The notes beneath the pieces were generated by a model that saw nothing but the letters and a program-made list of their open reading frames with translations, did not search any database and was not told where the DNA came from. This document shows, in pieces, positions 4,839 through 60,473 of a stretch of 60,473 nt of DNA. A program made the position numbers and the translations under genes. The stretch is from positions 1-60,473 of the forward strand of contig AJFK01000843.1 in the NCBI GenBank assembly GCA_000467715.1, in the 5' to 3' direction. The stretch is from Hysterium pulicare CBS 123377 (lineage: Eukaryota > Ascomycota > Dothideomycetes > Hysteriales > Hysteriaceae). The stretch's first letter is position 1; every line of letters starts with the position of its first letter.

Positions 4839-5692
4839 GATTTGATTGATGTGTTGATAGAGGTGACTAGAAACATGAAATGAAGAACATAGGAAACCCT
4901 AGAGAAATTGAGGTTATTGAAGGTGATTTGGAGGGCTCACATCAGGAAAAGCTCACGCGGTGAGACTCCGCGTTGGCGTTGAAGCGGGAGCTTCGGTGCC
5001 GAGGTTGTTGAAGCTTACGCCTGCTCCTTATCTAGTGTCACACTTCGCTATTCGGAGCAGTATAGAACATATCCTCCAACAAGCCTGACGACCTTGGGAT
5101 CTCGGAGATCCACTGTCTTCATTTCTTCCGAGCCTCTTCAAACGTCCTTTCCAAGTTATCATCTAAAAGATGAAATTTAGAATATGTCATGGAATTATGG
5201 AATGACGAGGAGGTACCCGCGCAAGGCTGAACGAGCCGCGTGCTTGCTTCTTCAGGCTCCAGCTCAGCCTTGCGCGATATTGGCTTGATATTATTTAAGT
5301 ATCTGAGAACCCTTCAACGGACACAAATGCATCTGTTTTGACAAGTCTGCATTTGTTTCGTCGGTCGTCCGTCTTGACTTTGAAACACGCTTGTCTACTT
5401 CCTTACAGAGGCACATATAGGAGTGTGCGTGAAGTAAGTTTCTACTTTTCTGATCTCGAATTTCCTGTTTTCTATGACTTCGGATCAGTTTTAGGCATTA
5501 TCTAACGAGCAAAAGTCAGTCAACAGTCCATGGGTAAAAACTTATTCACCACGCACTATTTTCCTATCAAAGTCCTAAGCGAGCACCATTGGAAGTACCC
5601 CTATATTCGCTGCAGCCAGTATACAGCTCGCTATCAGAACGTCTGATATCTCTCCCCCATCCGTTTCATATGAACTCCTAAATGATCCCAGT
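4839..5692. other. Divergent intergenic region with two inverted repeats
   Basis: This 854-bp spacer lies between the divergently transcribed crotonase and CorA-like/Zn2Cys6 genes and must hold both promoters. It contains a perfect 13-bp inverted repeat at 5218-5230 and 5264-5276 (CGCGCAAGGCTGA and its complement, 33-bp loop) and a 9-bp inverted repeat at 5323-5331 and 5348-5356 (ACAAATGCA/TGCATTTGT). A TATTTAAGT stretch lies near 5289. No coding region is supported. Confidence 0.55.
5218..5276. repeat. Perfect 13-bp inverted repeat (possible hairpin)
   Basis: The arms CGCGCAAGGCTGA (5218-5230) and TCAGCCTTGCGCG (5264-5276) are exact reverse complements separated by 33 bp. The arms are GC-rich in otherwise AT-richer intergenic DNA. 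It could be a stem-loop in a long 5' UTR, a dyad operator, or the trace of a small inverted-repeat element; no target-site duplication is evident. Confidence 0.6.
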
Positions 5693-8529
5693 ATGGCCAT
5701 CTCTACAATCGAGACAGATGACAACAGATTGACTAAACAACGTCACCTTGATGGAAATTTTGATGCAGCTATTGGTACAGCACACCATCGACCTGATCAT
5801 GAAGAAAGAACATATGAAACTTCAGATGATGAAGACAGACCTTCAGTGTATGATACTGAAGCCAAGATACATTCAAGGTCATCTTTGACTGCAAGGCCGG
5901 AGTTTCCGGACAATCTCAACCAGATTCTAAGCTCTTATCAGGGCGCCACACAACTCGCCCGTCAATATCTTTCTCGCATAGACGAACTTACAACGGTCAA
6001 CTCGGTCCTCGAATACAAAATGGACCTGCTGAAGAGTCTTAAGGGTAGTGCAGAACCAAAGCTTGGGGATGTTGAAGAGAAGTTAGTCCAACCAAGATCT
6101 CGCTCATCCCTAATTCCATTGGACGCCTCATCTCACCAAGACCGTTTAAATTTGGATACTGTACATGAACCAGAAGCTCGTGGCAACTTGACAAGTTCAC
6201 CGGATTTGGTTACAAGAGGAGCAAGGCTGGCAGGAAACCCTGGCAGAGCTGGCCGGCATTTTTGGGAAGAAGAGGATGACAATTATAGTAAACCCAACCA
6301 TGCTTACGGCCAATCTGCCGTATCCGAAGTCCATAGGGCGATTGCTATATTAAAGGATGAACATGCCTATAATCAAGCAGTCATAGTAGATCTACGACGA
6401 TCTTTAAATGCGCTCTTGCAGCTCTGCTTGATCGAACAAAATAAACTTGCCGTCGCTGCCAACTCACAACATAAGGCTATTTGCATACTCACGGCTGGGA
6501 GTTTTGTCTTCCTGCCTCTTTCCTTCCTTACCTCGTTCTATGGCTTGAATTGGAATGGCGCTGTTGGTATCTCTAAGCCCGGGAGTTATTTCTGGAAGGC
6601 CTGCGGCGCTACGGCACTCATTTCAGTTGTATCACTATGGGCCTTCAGGCCCAAGTTGGCACTACGACTGTTTTCCAAAGAAGAGAAAACAGATCGTCCT
6701 CCATCATTAAAACCGCTGGAATATTTGGTCGATACTGACAAAGTTTCCAGCCGACTATTACAGCGTCATTATACGGCTCATGGGCAAGATCAGAATAATA
6801 TAGAAGGCTTACCGCTTAAAAATGGATTAATGCCCAAATCCGCGGAAAGGACACCGATTTCTTGCAGCAATTGTACCAAAGCCAGTACTAAATGCGACAA
6901 AAAGTTACCATGCTCTCGATGTGTCAGTCGGGAACTTCAATGCACACTAAGACCTACCCGTCGGGCTTCGAAAAACATCAGTCGACTTGTCCTTCCAGAG
7001 GTCTCTAATAGCTATCAAGCTCCTCATCATCCAAAACAGGAATTTAGTCAATGGCGGATCTCATCAAGTAAAGAACCTGATTTAAAAACCACGATAGAGA
7101 ACATACTCGGTCTAGACAGGATTGCAAATATTGCGGCTCCCGAAGGGAAAACCTCCGGTACATATAACAACATTACTGTCGACAATCCACTGTCGACTGC
7201 TGGAACATCTTCGCCGCTGGATTATCATCCACCAGAACCGGAAGAGGACTTGATGCTACAGGAGCTTGCTGAAAGTAAGCATTCAATACTCGATCCAAAA
7301 GCTCGGATTCCGTGGACAATGCTGAGAATGCCACTTGATGTTCTCTGCGAGATCGGATATAGATTCAGGAAACTACTTCGCCCGAGAGTCAGGGCCAGCT
7401 TCACGCGGCTGGAATGGACCTGTGTAAGTGTTCTTATTCTCAACAATGAAGAAATATCCCAAAACGTGAGAATGTTCGGGTTTCTCATAGCGATCAGCTA
7501 CTGCACGTAAATCCAAAGCTTTTTTAAACCTTACCCCTCAGCTCTAACGTTGCTTGTTAGGATTGTGGACAGTTTATGTACGGAGACTACAAATGTGGAG
7601 GGGATGGAAACCTGAATAATCTGTTAGCTCGATTACAACTCCTAAAATATAACAATCCGCAATATACCCAAGAAGACTCATCCAGATCCTCCGAAAACTC
7701 TAGCACCATTCAGGGGGTATCTCAAGGAAATAACGGAGCGCATTCCACGTCGCAGGGTTCGCTATCAGGCATTTCATATCACCCAAATTCTGAGATCGGA
7801 AATAACTCTACCGGCTTCAGCATGAACAGCGTCGCGCCGCCGATTTCTCTCTATCGTTTCTTTGAACTCTGCGTCAATACGAGCTCGTCAACGACCGTGT
7901 TGGGCGAGCTCGATCTTCGCTTTACATCGAATAGGGAGGAATGGCCTCCAGTGAAGACCGATGCTGCGCTATTCGAAATCATTCATCGCCGATATTTTGA
8001 ACTCCGCAAACATCGCCGCTTCTCGTTCCTGTATAAGCCGGTAGATATCCAATTCGTCCGCTTCAGTACTTTCGAAGGCCACCGCGTGGGTATATATGAA
8101 AAGCCAATGGCTGTCCCACCCCTGGACGAAGTTAAAGAGGGACGATACCACTACCACGAGTGCCCGCTCGACCCTCTGCCCCCAATTGATCATCGCACGT
8201 TCTTACATTACTTCTGGAACCACGCACGACACCGTCACTCCAAGAGCGATCTTTTCCTCAACAGATTGCCCAAGAAGTTGCAAACAAGCATGCTTCAACA
8301 GGCGCGACCAGACCAACTTAACCTTGGATGGGGTGTGCATATTATCGAAGGGCCGAATAAAGCCTTGCTCGCACTAGGCATGTTCATCATACTGATCATC
8401 AGCTTTACCGTGTCCCTGGTCTACGCTCTTGCGATGAAAACTCAAGAAAGCGGCTTCGGGATTGGCCAATGGATGGTCGCTACGCTGTCAGCAGGGCTGG
8501 CTGCCGTGTATTTCCATTTGGCAGAGTGA
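5693..8529 (+). CDS. Large membrane protein fusing CorA-like segment, Zn2Cys6 cluster and C-terminal anchor
   Basis: Two exons (5693-7423 and 7561-8529) joined at TGT|GAT give 899 residues. Residues 1-200 are acidic and charged. About 210-325 resemble the C-terminal part of CorA-type Mg2+ transporters: a helical stretch, then a membrane segment (about 262-282) ending in YGLN, close to the CorA GMN motif with Met changed to Leu, and a second membrane segment (about 302-318). Residues 391-417 are a canonical binuclear cluster, C-x2-C-x6-C-x5-C-x2-C-x6-C (CSNCTKASTKC, then CSRC and the last Cys), flanked by basic residues. The intron junction lies in RLEWTCDCG, a motif I associate with an unnamed fungal family; the second exon ends with two hydrophobic helices (about 843-866 and 873-893). 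The CorA-like and zinc-cluster parts share one uninterrupted exon, so the fusion is not a splicing guess. Function is unknown; a membrane-tethered regulator is one inference. Confidence 0.8.
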
Positions 8530-16436: not shown

Positions 16437-19400
16437 TCATATCCCTCCCAAATGCTTCAAGACCCTCGTACCATGAGTCCATGTCACGCCCAGAGCACCA
16501 GGAACATACTCCCCCGTACTCCCACTCCTCTGCCTCATACCTTCCCACTCACCCTTATACCTAGGCCAAGGCATCAAGACACCCGTACTCCACCTCCTCT
16601 TTGGCAGGGGTCGATCATATCCGGACCACTGCGCCTCACTCTCCTCTACGCTCTTAACAATCGCCTCCTGCAACTCCTCCTCCGCAATCCTCAACTCCCG
16701 GTCATGGACTTCATCGAATTTCTTGACGCCCGCATCCCTCTCGTTGCGATCGTGTCCAAAGAGGAAGTACCAATCGATAACCTCAAGGAATCTGCGAAGC
16801 CGCTTTTCGCTCTCTTCGACCGACTCATCTTCATCCCTTCCCATTAGAAGTACATCCGCCATCTTCTTGAGCATCGCCATGAACCGGTCGTCCGCGACGT
16901 AGGATCGCTTGATATGAACTCGCAGTCGGTCCCACTCATCATTCCAGATCCTCTCCGCACGTACTTTATATTCTTTGTCCATATGCTCTCTATGTTCCTT
17001 GTCCTCTTGTGACTCAATCATGCCTCTGGAGGTGAAGAGATACTCCCAGCGTTGAACGTCTTCCTCGATCTCTTTCCTCCACTTCGCAAGCCTTGTAATG
17101 CGGAGTCGGACTACTTCTTCGAGGAACTTGATTTGGGGCGCGTCTTCGGGTCGGCGCAAGAGCTCGGGCGAACATTCTAGCGCTGCGTAGATGATGACGA
17201 GGAAGAAAGAGTCGAGGTCGTGGGAGAGGGTGCGATGAGGAGTTTCTGCGTTTATGAGGGGGGATATGAAGCCGGGAGTGCCGATTTTCAGGTCTTGGGG
17301 AAAGGGGCGTTGGCCGTCGACGATGAGGGCTGAGGACCATCCGATGAGCGTGCCACGGTGGGATGTGCCGCGGACATCGCCAGTGAGTCTGGTAAGAGGT
17401 GTGGGTACAAGGATGTTGAAGGGTGATACATCTATACGGCATCAGTAACAGGCTCTGCGTTGAGAGGCGGACGGTGATTGCTGCTTCTAGCAAACGCAAA
17501 CGAAGCATCAGGGTAACGAGCTAAATAGAACTTACTTCCATGCATGACACCCTTTTCTTCCATCTTGTAAGCCTCATAATAACTGATCACGGCATCTCGC
17601 ACAATCGTCATAAGAGTGACCGCAATACACGGCGGCCGATCAATCGTCCAATAAGCCTTCTCCTTTGACGGATCCGGCGGCTTATAGTTTTGATCGGTCC
17701 ACTCAATCACCTCCATCAGCGGCGTAGCATACGACGTAAACCGCCGCATAAGCTGTCGTTTTGGCTGCGCACACTCAATATTGAACACGTTCGTCAAGCA
17801 TTTCGGATAGTTTCCAGTAACAGGAGTTGCATGTCGCCGCTCCGCAACCATGTCCGGAAGACAACGAGCACCGGCTTCTTTTAGGGTGACGAGGACATCG
17901 ACTTCATCTCCTGGTGGTGATGCGTGAGTTTGTGTTAGTTCCCAGGAGGACTTCAGAACTAATATCCCTTTGGGAATTGCTTTGTAGGGGCGTTCGGATG
18001 TGGCTGGTTCGATCTTTACTTCGCCGTCCCATATGCTGTCTGGGTTGAAGTCTTTTAGATGGTTGTCTTCGAACGTGGCACTCTCCTCATCTACATCATC
18101 TCGATCATAATCGCTTTCGAGCCGAGGTATCCGGGTTTGCATGCCCACGACGGTTTCGTTGGGGGTGTCATCATGTTCGAATCTGACTCGTTTTGCGCTG
18201 TGGCCGTTGGTCTTAATTTGGTCATCATGCTCATCCCTAGGTCTCTTCTTGCTTCCTGCCGAGCCTGGTAAGACTGCTTGGTCGACATCCATCTGTTCAT
18301 CATCTGGCAAAGTCAGAACAAATTGGGGTAGATCTAAAATCACATCTGAGTCGTGAGGAGCTGAGCTCCCGAATTCCGGGATATGATGCTCGAGTTCCAT
18401 GTCTTCACTCTCCGTTTCGCTAATTGTGATAAGCGGAACATCAAGAGCAACATTTGGAGTCTGTGCTGTTGAAGGTGGTGTAGGCGCTGATGGGTTGCCC
18501 ATGGGCAGATCACACTCCATACTATCAGTCTCGACTCCCGTCACAGTGATGACGGGAGGTTGCGGAAATTCCGACGTCTGTTTCTTCGGTGGTGCTAAAG
18601 ACACTGGTATGCCTTCATTCGTGAAACACACCAACTCATCAGTTGCGGCTCTGTAGAAGCACGGAACTGGGCCAGCTCCGTCAACAAGGTACTTCGACTT
18701 TCGGTAGAACTCGCGATCTACGCAGCTCAACATCAGCGTCCTCCAGCCCACGGGTAATATCGTATTCTTCTTCCTCTGCCTCTTCAACTTTCTATCCAAA
18801 GTACGTTTCGAAATTCGCTCTAGCTTCGAATTCCGCCAGAAGATTTTCGGTTCTACTCGTCCGCCACGAAGCCGGGATGTAGAAGCTCACCGTTAGAAGA
18901 GCGGAGGGCCCAGACGAGGTCGTCATCCTCTTCTGTCTTCCTTTTATCCTTCTTTTTCTCCTTCTTTTTCTGCCTCGACCTAGAGGCTCCGCCGAAGACG
19001 CCCCCCTTCGGAACCTGCAAAAGCCCAGCGGTTTGTGGCGGAGGGCGATTGAACTCTCCATCCAAAGTTTCGGGCCTCGTGATAGTAATGAAAGGAACAC
19101 TGTCGAAATCCTGCCCATACTCGAGGAACTTTTCAAAGATTCGCACTTCTTCGAGTCGGGCCTCATGTTCTAGTTCTCTAGGCGTCATCTGCTTGATGAG
19201 TGCAACGCGAACATGTCTACCTTGGAGTTCGGGCTTCCAATGGAGCACTTCTAGTTCCTTGTACCATCTTTGGGCGACAAGAAATGCTGAGGGTATCCCT
19301 TCGAATTCGGGAGTTTGACCTCGTGTGCTAGGATCGGCGATGAACTCGAGCAAGAAGCTGATAAGGCTGATTGCGTGGTTGTAGTCTTCCATGAACCGCA

Positions 19401-20099
19401 ACGGCGTTGTTAGGACGTTCTCAGAGTGATCGGTGTAGCAGACGAAAGCAACTGGCCTGATGAATAGAACTCCGAGCAGAAAGGGCCGCCAAGGTTGGTC
19501 TTCGAAGACGCGTTTGGCTCTGTTCAGCCATCGTCGATGCACATGCTCAACATGCCCGGCGATGCGGTAGTGTTTGCTGGAATGCTCCATAAGAAGCTGA
19601 ACACTTGTAAACTGTTTGCAACAAGGACCGGAGTAGAGGGCAAAATCAGGCTCAGGTCCTGGCTCTAGATCCAGGAGTTCTAGAGCTGGACGCCACCACC
19701 TGCGTTTCTTGGGGTGTAGCGGTGGCGGTCCTTCTATTTTTGCGTAGTGTAAAGAGAGTTCTTGGAGGTCCTGGTCCGACATCATTAATACTAAAGCATG
19801 AGAATAGGACGGAATTCATCTCTTACCTGCGTAGCAAATGCCTTGAGAACATGCTGACCAAAAGCATCCTCCTGCCACATTTCCTCCGACTCCCCGAGCT
19901 TGACTAGGCTTAGAAGCATCTTCGTGCCGTAGTGCTCTAATTCTCCCTCAAGCTTAAGGAGGTCTTTTGCTGGCATGGGAGAGAACGGCTGAGGTGGATC
20001 CTCAAGCTCTTCGAGATCTGCATGGTGGCAGTATGTTCCCGGTGGTACTGGATAGATGACGGCTTCTTCATAGCCGCAAAAACAGAGACCTAAGCACAT
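16437..20099 (-). CDS. Large FunK1-type fungal protein kinase-like protein, probable pseudokinase
   Basis: Modelled as five exons (20099-19827, 19770-18891, 18787-18693, 18634-17536, 17431-16437), which keep one frame through 1113 residues. The N-terminal half has FEDQPWRPFLLGVLFIRP and a following all-alpha part, the region seen before the kinase lobe in FunK1 proteins. A charged linker with KKRPRDEHDD and AKRVRFEHD blocks looks like a nuclear localisation signal. The C-terminal half has VLVTLKEAGARC, YYEAYKMEEKGVMHGNVSPF, KIGTPGFISP and HDLDSFFLVIIYAALE, matching the kinase C-lobe order. The HRD position reads HGN (Asp to Asn) and the DFG-like position reads LIGWSSALI where relatives have LIDWD or LIDFD, so both catalytic Asp are absent. 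The two middle introns (18788-18890, 18635-18692) are the least certain. Alternatively this could be two genes, but both halves are needed for one FunK1 domain. Confidence 0.7.
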
Positions 20100-57788: not shown

Positions 57789-57797
57789 ATATAAAAA
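57789..57797 (+). promoter_or_regulatory. TATA box of the VIT/vWA gene
   Basis: TATAAAAAG, followed by a strongly pyrimidine-rich tract and CA-rich leader to ATG 57923 (TCAACTCATGGCT). The distance of 126 bp fits a leader start about 95 bp before the ATG. Confidence 0.6.
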
Positions 57798-57922
57798 GAG
57801 CACCTTCCCCTTTTCTTCAACATCAAACTTCTCCTTCGCAAAATATTCTCTCCTTTCAACTCACTCTTCTTTTCCAGAGAACCCCTCAACAAGTCACCCA
57901 CCAACGTCTCGTCACTCAACTC

Positions 57923-60473
57923 ATGGCTCGCACCAAGCAACCGGCTCGAGGTTACTCCGCTCCTCACATCTGCGGGTGCTACTTCACTACTGATACAGGC
58001 TCTGGAACCCTGAAGCGTACATATCTTCCGCAGGTCAAGCTTGATGCTCATATGACTGTGTTCTCCACTGCGTCAAGCACTACCTTAACACAGACGTTTG
58101 TTAATCCGTCGAAGAATCAGCCATTGGGAGAGATCAGGTGAGTGCTATACTCCCCTGTAGTTTCTTTCCTCCACTGGCCATTCAGCCAATGCTAACGAAC
58201 ACAGATACACGTTTCCTTTGTACGAGGGTGTCAGCGTCGTCGATTTCAAATGCCAGGTCAACGAACGTACCATCTACGGTCTCGTGAAAGAGAAAGAGGA
58301 AGCCCGTAGAACATATGAGAAAGCCAAAGAACGAGGAGAAAATGCCAGTATCCTTGAGCAGCTGCCTGATGCTGCTGACGTCTTCACCACCTCAATCAGT
58401 AACATCCCAGAGGGCAGCCAAGTCATTGTGACCATCACATTCATTCAAGAACTCAAGCATGATGCTGAAGTGGATGGGATTCGATACACTATGCCGACTT
58501 CGATCGCCCCTCGCTACGGCTCGTATCCGGGCGACCTTATGTCATCGTCTTCTGTCAATGATTCAGGGGGCATGTCCATTACTATTGATGTTTCTATGTC
58601 TGATGGTGTCCCTATTCAGAAGATCATTTCGCCATCCCACCCGATCGAGGTCTCACTTGGCACGCTATCCACATCAACTATTGATCAGGATCCTTCCACC
58701 TTCAAGGCTTCTGCCACCCTTGCTATGAGCACGACCGAACTTGAAAAGGACTTCGTCCTCCAGATCGTCGCGCGCGATATCGGCGTCCCACAGGCAATTC
58801 TCGAAACACATCCTACACTGCCAAACCAACGAGCCCTCATGACCACGCTGGTACCTAAGTTCTCTTTAAAGCCCCAGAAACCGGAGATCATCTTTATCGC
58901 CGACCGCTCTGGATCAATGCAAGGCAACGTCCCCACCTTGATCTCGGCTCTGCACGTTTTCTTAAAGTCACTTCCTGTTGGCGTGACGTTCAACATTTGC
59001 TCCTTTGGCAGTCGCTATGAGTTTCTCTGGTCTAAGAGTCAGGTGTATTCGAAGACGAGCTTGGCGCAAGCCATGAAATACGTGGATAAATTTGGTGCGG
59101 ATTTCGGCGGCACTGAGACATTTGCTGCTGTGAAGGCGACGATCGAAAACAGGCATAAGGATGTCCCGACCGAAGTTATGTTACTTACTGACGGGGACAT
59201 CTGGTCGCAGGATCAGCTCTTCAAGTATCTTGAAGAGCAGACTAAAGAGGGAACGGTCCGAGTCTTCCCTATCGGTATAGGTGGTGGTGTGTCAAGCGCG
59301 CTGATCGAAGGTGTGGCAAGAGCCGGTAAAGGCTTCTCTCAGATGGTGGGTAATGGAGAGAAGCTCGATGGGAAAATTGTTCGAATGCTCAAAGGAGCTC
59401 TGACGCCACATATCAACGACTACCAATTGGAAATCAAGTACGAGGATGATTCTGTGGATCGAGTGGCTGATAGTCTTCGCCTACAACTCACACTCGAAGA
59501 TGAAGACGAAGGCGACAAGAAGCGAGGCCCAGAACGCTACCCCCTCAGGAATCAGCCAATCTCTCTCTTCGACCCTGAGGCCAAGGAAACTGAAGCAGAG
59601 CCGGAGAAAGACGAGCCTCAGGATCGCTTCGCTGGTGTTCCAAAGTTCGACCGACCGAAGATTCTGCAAACGCCTCATACGATACCGCCGCTCTTTCCAT
59701 TCAATCGCACTTGTGTCTACCTCCTCATGTCTCCCGAAGCCTCCGAACTAATGCCTAAGAGCGTGATTCTCAAGGGAACATCGCCTCAAGGACCTTTGGA
59801 GCTGGAGATCCCTATTCAAGTCCGAGATGCCCCAGGCGAAATGATTCACCAACTCGCTGCACGCAAAGCCACACAGGAACTCGAAGAAGGCCGCGGTTGG
59901 CTCTCTGATGCCAAAGTTAACAGCCACGGTGCCCTTATCAAGCACAAGTATTCCAGCAAATATGACATGATCCTGCAGCGCGAGGCAGTACGTCTAGGCG
60001 TCGAATTTCAAGTCGGCGGGAAATACTGCTCTTTCGTCGCCGTGGAAGCCAACGAGGCTGAGATGGCCGAAAAGAGGAATAAAGTGTTGGAAGACGTGAA
60101 TAACAGATTCCACGCTGACTCCGAGAAGGATGATGAGAGTGCCGAAGACGATTTCGAGGTGGTGGATGCACTGGAGGAGGATGTACTGAATGCGAAGGTC
60201 CTCACTTGCTCCGAGCCAAGAGCCCAGCCCCAGTCGAGCCGGGCCGGATTCATGCTTATGGCATCCAGTAGAAGGACTAGCGCGAAAGCGCCCCGCAAGC
60301 AACTCGCCAGCAAGGCAGCACGAAAATCTGCCCCATCTGCTGGTAGCGTCTTTTTCGCCGACGCTGAAGCCGAAGTGGATGCTGAAGAGGAAGCAGAAGA
60401 AGAGTCCGAAGATGAGGATATGGGTTTTGGGTTCTTCGATGATGGAGCCCCTCCGCTATCGAGGCCGACGCCA
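57923..60473 (+). CDS. VIT and von Willebrand factor A domain protein with histone H3-like ends (incomplete)
   Basis: Exons 57923-58137 and 58205-60473 (67-bp intron, GCTAAC branch) give 828 codons, still open at the window edge. Residues 1-9 are MARTKQPAR. The VIT domain spans about 20-145 (YTFPLYEGVSVVDFKCQVNE, IYGLVKEKEEARRTYEKAKE, LEQLPDAADVFTTSISNIPE). The vWA domain (about 305-475) has a complete-looking MIDAS set: IIFIADRSGSMQGN (DxSxS), a Thr in FGGTETF and an Asp in MLLTDGDIW. A conserved middle region follows (RLGVEFQVGGKYCSFVAVEA). The last part is acidic, but residues 766-783 are KAPRKQLASKAARKSAPS, which matches fungal histone H3 K14-S31 as I recall it, flanked by TSA and AGSV. 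Related VIT/vWA proteins are cytosolic or of unknown role. I translated the whole second exon and saw no stop. Confidence 0.88.
60285..60338 (+). other. Segment coding for an 18-residue histone H3 tail match
   Basis: The codons from AAA at 60285 to TCT at 60338 encode KAPRKQLASKAARKSAPS in frame with the VIT/vWA protein. The preceding RRTSA and following AGSV also resemble H3 (KSTGG and TGGV). It carries the positions of H3 K14, K18, K23 and K27, and ARKS, the context of H3 K9 and K27 methylation. Confidence 0.85.

Follow-up and report, generated by a model that had tools for sequence, protein, structure and literature searches.

Histone H3 tail sequence at both ends of a VIT/vWA protein of Hysterium pulicare, a possible docking and import tail

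In the intracellular proteins VWA5A, Dictyostelium Vwa1 and PARP4, a VIT domain is followed by a vWA domain. Fungal members belong to this intracellular clade, and VWA5A and Vwa1 have a C-terminal domain in common (excerpts of PMC10539598). Cellular histone mimics form another group, in which an H3-tail-like stretch lies in the linker or tail of a non-histone protein. They include G9a and BAZ2B, whose histone-mimicking linker competes with H3 (excerpts of PMC5663869), and ADNP (excerpts of PMC3022755). Here we describe a gene in a 60,473-nucleotide stretch of Hysterium pulicare CBS 123377 (contig AJFK01000843.1, hereafter the window) whose product shares features with both groups. It has the VIT-then-vWA order and, by reading, no obvious signal peptide, and it resembles the H3 tail at its start and near its end. 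It differs from the described intracellular VIT/vWA proteins in carrying H3-like and ribosomal stalk-like peptides in its tail; the word "histone" does not occur in the main text of PMC10539598. This histone-tail-like sequence in a non-histone protein looks like mimicry and not chance. At a probability of roughly 40%, we read the product as an intracellular VIT/vWA protein whose docking and import tail came from H3 long ago and is kept for its protein sequence.

The gene lies on the forward strand at the end of the window. Joined, its two exons give a frame of 828 residues that has no stop codon and runs off the window end; the intron between them is predicted from the reading frame and consensus sites. 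The features are as follows.

57790..57796, forward strand: TATA box-like element TATAAAA, upstream of the gene (from the sequence)
57923..58137, forward strand: exon 1 of the VIT/vWA gene (spliced reading frame, 828 codons, open)
57923..57949, forward strand: N-terminal H3-like piece MARTKQPAR (7/8 of H3 A1-R8)
58037..58442, forward strand: VIT domain, residues 39-151, split by the intron (Pfam PF08487, E 1.9e-34)
58138..58204, forward strand: predicted intron, 67 nt, GTGAGT...ACAG (frame and consensus sites)
58205..60473, forward strand: exon 2, open at the window end (reading frame)
58884..59342, forward strand: vWA domain, residues 299-451 (Pfam PF13768, E 5.6e-26)
60276..60350, forward strand: H3-like block, residues 763-787, corresponding to H3 T11-V35, 21/25 identical (alignment, PDB search)
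60285..60338, forward strand: core of the H3-like block, K14-S31, 18/18 identical (alignment)
60366..60440, forward strand: acidic stretch, residues 793-817, with DEDMGFGFFD at its end; resembles the C-termini of ribosomal P0/P1/P2 (PDB, Pfam, shuffles)

The spliced protein begins MARTKQPARGYSAPHICGCYF, in which MARTKQPAR repeats seven of the eight residues of H3 A1-R8; the T6 position is Pro and the K9 position Gly. Near the other end, residues 766-783 read KAPRKQLASKAARKSAPS and are identical to H3 K14-S31 at all 18 positions. In the longer alignment, whose ends (T11 and V35) were set where matches lie, three of the seven positions outside K14-S31 are kept, namely T11, G33 and V35. These results uphold the original prediction, which had reported the H3-like start with its two substitutions, the mismatch-free block and the placement of both pieces in a VIT/vWA protein (PF08487 and PF13768 both score above their cut-offs). 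The longer piece also withstood testing against chance: the H3 tail scored 101 against the protein, far above all 25,000 shuffles, with maxima of 51 in 5,000 shuffles of the whole protein and 53 in 20,000 shuffles of the tail.

Consistently, a PDB search with the 143-residue tail region returned H3 chains with a best E of 3e-5, and the best 60 of its 144 matches were all H3 kinds or labelled Cse4. When exon 2 was used entire, H3 chains were recovered at E 2.5e-4. On the strength of the shuffles and PDB E-values we reject a chance origin of the K14-S31 block. In a six-frame scan, the four frames without the two pieces held no exact H3-tail match longer than four residues, and the rows shown for the two frames holding them were sub-matches of those pieces. 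The tail preceding the block had no match in the PDB, the 41 residues past V35, where a histone fold would follow, bear no likeness to H3, and Pfam gave no histone in the protein at E ≤ 1.

The H3-like start is likely the protein's N-terminus, because the ATG at 57923, downstream of TATAAAA at 57790, is the only one within the scanned interval 57791-57925. The segment between them (57801-57922) is 70% C+T. ARTKQ would thus stand where it stands in H3, at the N-terminus: removal of the initiator Met before Ala would expose it as in the histone. Under the composition of this protein, a match of 7/8 at the corresponding position has a probability of about 2e-8. The short piece draws its weight from this position and from the presence of the second block.

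The domain core is well defined. The VIT match reaches 118.6 bits (cut-off 26.5) and the vWA match downstream of it 91.9 bits (cut-off 27), and the vWA domain contains, by reading, the metal-site motif DRSGS (D305, S307 and S309). NCBIfam TIGR03788 scored 207.8 bits, below its cut-off of 551.65. With exon 2 as PDB query, the closest solved relative was PARP4 (E 4.9e-21, protein residues 73-450), followed by ITIH1 and ITIH4; a second stretch aligned with PARP4, 554-635, is very weak (E 52 for that part alone). A search of 72,556 plasmid records brought up bacterial relatives in 44, each of them short of 80% query coverage; matches in the 12 rows listed go no further than query residue 414 (protein residue 486). 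Since PARP4 and the plasmid relatives match the core only, the VIT/vWA core is ordinary and the C-terminal tail is extra. Indeed, the N-terminal H3 piece, the K14-S31 block and the stalk-like motif all lie outside the VIT and vWA matches. Two pattern scans of prokaryote genomes gave 62 and 81 matches, none confirmed as a relative; as the plasmid records do hold bacterial relatives, these null scans reflect the patterns chosen and not absence. In viral contigs 32 stretches fitted a search pattern for relatives and none was confirmed, and a 66-residue piece of the tail found no match in phages.

The composition of the tail suggests that the region around the H3 block is disordered: residues that promote disorder make up 85% of each of the windows 741-780 and 761-800. 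Net charge in 25-residue bins runs -9, -3, +7 (751-775), -4 and -9, and the basic stretch is thus flanked by acidic ones. Shortly after the block, the acidic run followed by DMGFG-x-FD is common to this tail and the ribosomal stalk proteins P0, P1 and P2, so that H3-tail block and stalk-like peptide fall within one 55-residue stretch (763-817). This second motif, as well as the import contacts discussed below, had been overlooked in the original prediction, of which the two H3-like pieces in a VIT/vWA protein stand. A 45-residue query matched P1-alpha (E 0.0074) and P0 (E 0.0089) in the PDB, the matching stretches alone giving 0.042 and 0.022, respectively. Pfam PF00428 was found at E 7.8e-5 in the tail fragment and 0.0014 in the full protein, in both cases below the gathering score (23.6 and 19.6 bits, cut-off 28.1). 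The motif scored 83, and shuffles reached at most 51 and 62; as it was picked after looking, this result is post hoc and the database E-values, which are modest, are the fair measure. Chance appears less firmly rejected here than for the H3 block. The motif also departs from those of the stalk proteins in that F replaces L, and it does not form a free C-terminus, at least 11 residues following it. Part of the acidic run is encoded by a short tandem array of 12-nt units, GAAGCAGAAGAG, in 2.9 copies (60366-60400).

A possible function emerges from comparison with the nuclear localisation signal of H3. The crystal structure of the karyopherin Kap123 bound to H3 1-28 shows order in residues 12-17 and 21-26 and nowhere else in the peptide; two pockets take up K14 and K23, K14 requires small neighbours, and the consensus is small-K-small-(X)6 or more-K (excerpts of PMC5677370). 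The block of H. pulicare has K14, its small neighbours, the required spacing and K23: it reads A765-K766-A767, seven residues and K775, which satisfies the consensus. Over those ordered H3 residues the block departs from H3 twice, with Ser for G12 and Ala for G13. In contrast to the H3 import signal, the one predicted here from the sequence is internal in a large protein.

According to the docking and import reading, fungal H3 coding sequence would have been taken in long ago and given rise to the K14-S31 block, whose flanks would have drifted since, with selection on the protein sequence retaining the block itself. Decay around a kept core would fit the 3/7 identity outside K14-S31. The block would then act as a docking peptide that presents K14 and K23 to Kap123-type karyopherins, the importers of H3, and this contact would bring the whole protein into the nucleus. 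Inside it, H3-tail enzymes might modify, and H3-tail readers bind, the ARTKQ N-terminus and the intact contexts of K14, K18, K23 and K27 (ARKS); the stalk-like motif could serve as a second docking peptide. Import through Kap123 contacts would be a simpler function than the competition for H3-tail enzymes proposed earlier.

The residues and codons of the block bear on where it came from. It has S22 and S31, as do five aligned PDB chains of H3 (1id3 and others) that we take to be yeast H3; two listed chains labelled H3.3 and H3.1 have T22. S22 together with S31 suggests that the source was fungal. Codon usage in fungal histone genes is strongly biased. AAA, GCG, CAA, AGC, GCA, CGA and CCA occur in the block as elsewhere in the gene, and GC content at third codon positions is 0.50 in the block and 0.56 in the rest of the gene. 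Such gene-like codons would speak against a fresh insert. A repeat scan of 59900-60473 revealed five families of short direct repeats, one short tandem array and two inverted pairs of imperfect identity (15 nt, 80%; 12 nt, 83%), and no insertion signature was seen there. Nor did the window yield a convincing leftover H3 gene or H4 neighbour: among the tblastn matches listed, the best row for the H3 core had E 0.62 and 20% identity and was absent from a separate list at E ≤ 1, and the H4 rows had E 0.34 and 0.84.

Several observations weigh against the docking and import reading. The consensus is loose; with spacings of 6-10 it matches a second time where the vWA domain ends, at residue 446. 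Import would account for K14 to R26; it needs neither K27-S31 nor ARTKQ, both of which are present, so that import alone is insufficient for the pieces. An identity wider than import needs suggests either descent from H3, with the entire stretch under selection, or more than one use. Candidate partners for such uses are acetyltransferases, K27 enzymes and readers of a free ARTKQ N-terminus. Selection on the block is itself inferred from one gene. As to the source, the best PDB match is an H3.3-labelled chain with T22 and S31, slightly above the S22 chains, which leaves the argument for a fungal origin resting on one or two residues. At the N-terminus, residues 1-62 retrieved no H3 from the PDB at E ≤ 10 (the single match had E 1.3), and the N-terminal piece, short and weak alone, reached E 4.3 by tblastn within the window. 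Finally, the AlphaFold model of exon 2 alone has a mean pLDDT of 32.7.

Chief among the rival explanations is that the H3 and stalk pieces are functionless passengers, fragments of H3 and P-protein messages captured in frame, for example during break repair. Few messages are as abundant as those for H3 and P proteins, which counts for this view, as does the position of the tail outside the part common to the bacterial plasmid relatives. However, H3-like codons would be expected of a recent fragment, whereas the block shares its codon usage with the remainder of the gene; an old fragment free of selection would not be expected to stay identical at 18/18 positions, and the N-terminal ARTKQ requires a separate event. 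We therefore regard passenger fragments as unlikely, though as the main competitor. Both pieces might instead derive from one event, in which a copy of the H3 gene received the VIT/vWA region as an insert or as a downstream fusion, so that H3 1-8 was left upstream together with the promoter and leader, and 11-35 downstream. Such an event is conceivable because the pieces are collinear, non-overlapping and nearly contiguous in H3 (A1-R8, T11-V35), and a TATA box and a C+T-rich leader lie upstream. It is nevertheless improbable, as the window lacks a convincing H3 core or H4 and about 127 residues separate the last PARP4-aligned residue (635) from the block (763). Convergence, in which a peptide not from H3 arose by selection to bind an H3-tail partner, would account for codons that do not look histone-like. 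To our knowledge, however, an 18-residue identity exceeds that of known short-motif mimics. The identical residues also include the middle region 15-22, which Kap123 does not specifically recognise (excerpts of PMC5677370), and we find convergence hard to credit.

The closeness of the H3-tail and stalk-like peptides (within residues 763-817) would also suit a decoy or bait, a tail showing peptides that guide foreign or competing proteins to chromatin and ribosomes and so sequestering or sensing them. Supporting this idea, one ribosome-inactivating protein was shown to use the acidic triplet and FGLF of the stalk peptide to bind it (excerpts of PMC3280276). The odds of a decoy are poor, however: exon 2, the only PADLOC query, had no match there, none of the ten other Pfam-scanned frames looked like a defence gene, and the stalk-like motif has F for L and, with at least 11 residues after it, is no free C-terminus. 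With the H3 tail at both ends, arranged as in H3 (ARTKQ N-terminal, K14-S31 internal), and a stalk tail in addition, all outside the folded core, a decoy or sensor tying chromatin to translation, or a guard of the self-peptides by which invaders find these machines, would be a long shot. Chance and an assembly chimera are unlikely, and we give a chimera or a wrong gene model barely any weight. The gene does sit at the window end, and its model is built from the sequence alone. Yet a single uninterrupted frame of 2,268 bases crosses the block, the flanks are not H3 sequence, third-position composition is continuous, and a chimera would not produce another H3 piece where translation starts.

How does the protein compare with known histone mimics? 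The likeness of G9a and ADNP to H3 extends over a few residues, and we know of no histone mimic that shares more than a few. Relative to BAZ2B, whose lysine-rich linker bears a looser resemblance (excerpts of PMC5663869), the H. pulicare protein has 18 identical residues and an N-terminal ARTKQ. ARKS with its K27 context is found both in this block and in viral mimics of the ARKS type, one claim of which is disputed (excerpts of PMC10833455); unlike those, which mimic their host, this gene appears to mimic its own kind. Among the matches listed from open-licence PubMed Central, no such fungal protein is described, and a 17-letter piece of the block was not found in these papers. With its 18-residue identity and N-terminal ARTKQ, the protein would be a long natural histone mimic in a genetically tractable cell type. 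KQLASKAAR, bounded by arginine in both proteins, would not be an H3-specific peptide in this fungus, and antibodies to this stretch might cross-react. The neighbouring stalk-like motif hints that docking peptides of core machines may accumulate in tails of this kind.

H3-like strings were also sought in viral contigs. A degenerate pattern for KAPRKQLA (Arg as CGN and Leu as CTN only) had one match there, KAPRKQLAA. It belongs to contig L001, where a minus-strand frame at 1098-2549, integrase-like by eye, ends SPKAPRKQLAA; we rejected it as an H3 mimic, the likeness to KAPRKQLA being a chance one over eight residues.

Elsewhere in the window, three long minus-strand frames lie in series at 16437-19815. 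Those at 17435-18886 and 18856-19815 had no Pfam match at E ≤ 0.001, and the third looks, by eye, like a piece of a fungal protein kinase. The ten Pfam-scanned frames include a Zn2Cys6 cluster and a fungal transcription-factor domain, which mark the DNA as fungal. At 5579-7507, one frame encodes a CorA-like transporter segment (E 3.1e-9) with a Zn2Cys6 cluster downstream (E 2.8e-6), an odd pairing that may represent a fusion or two genes.
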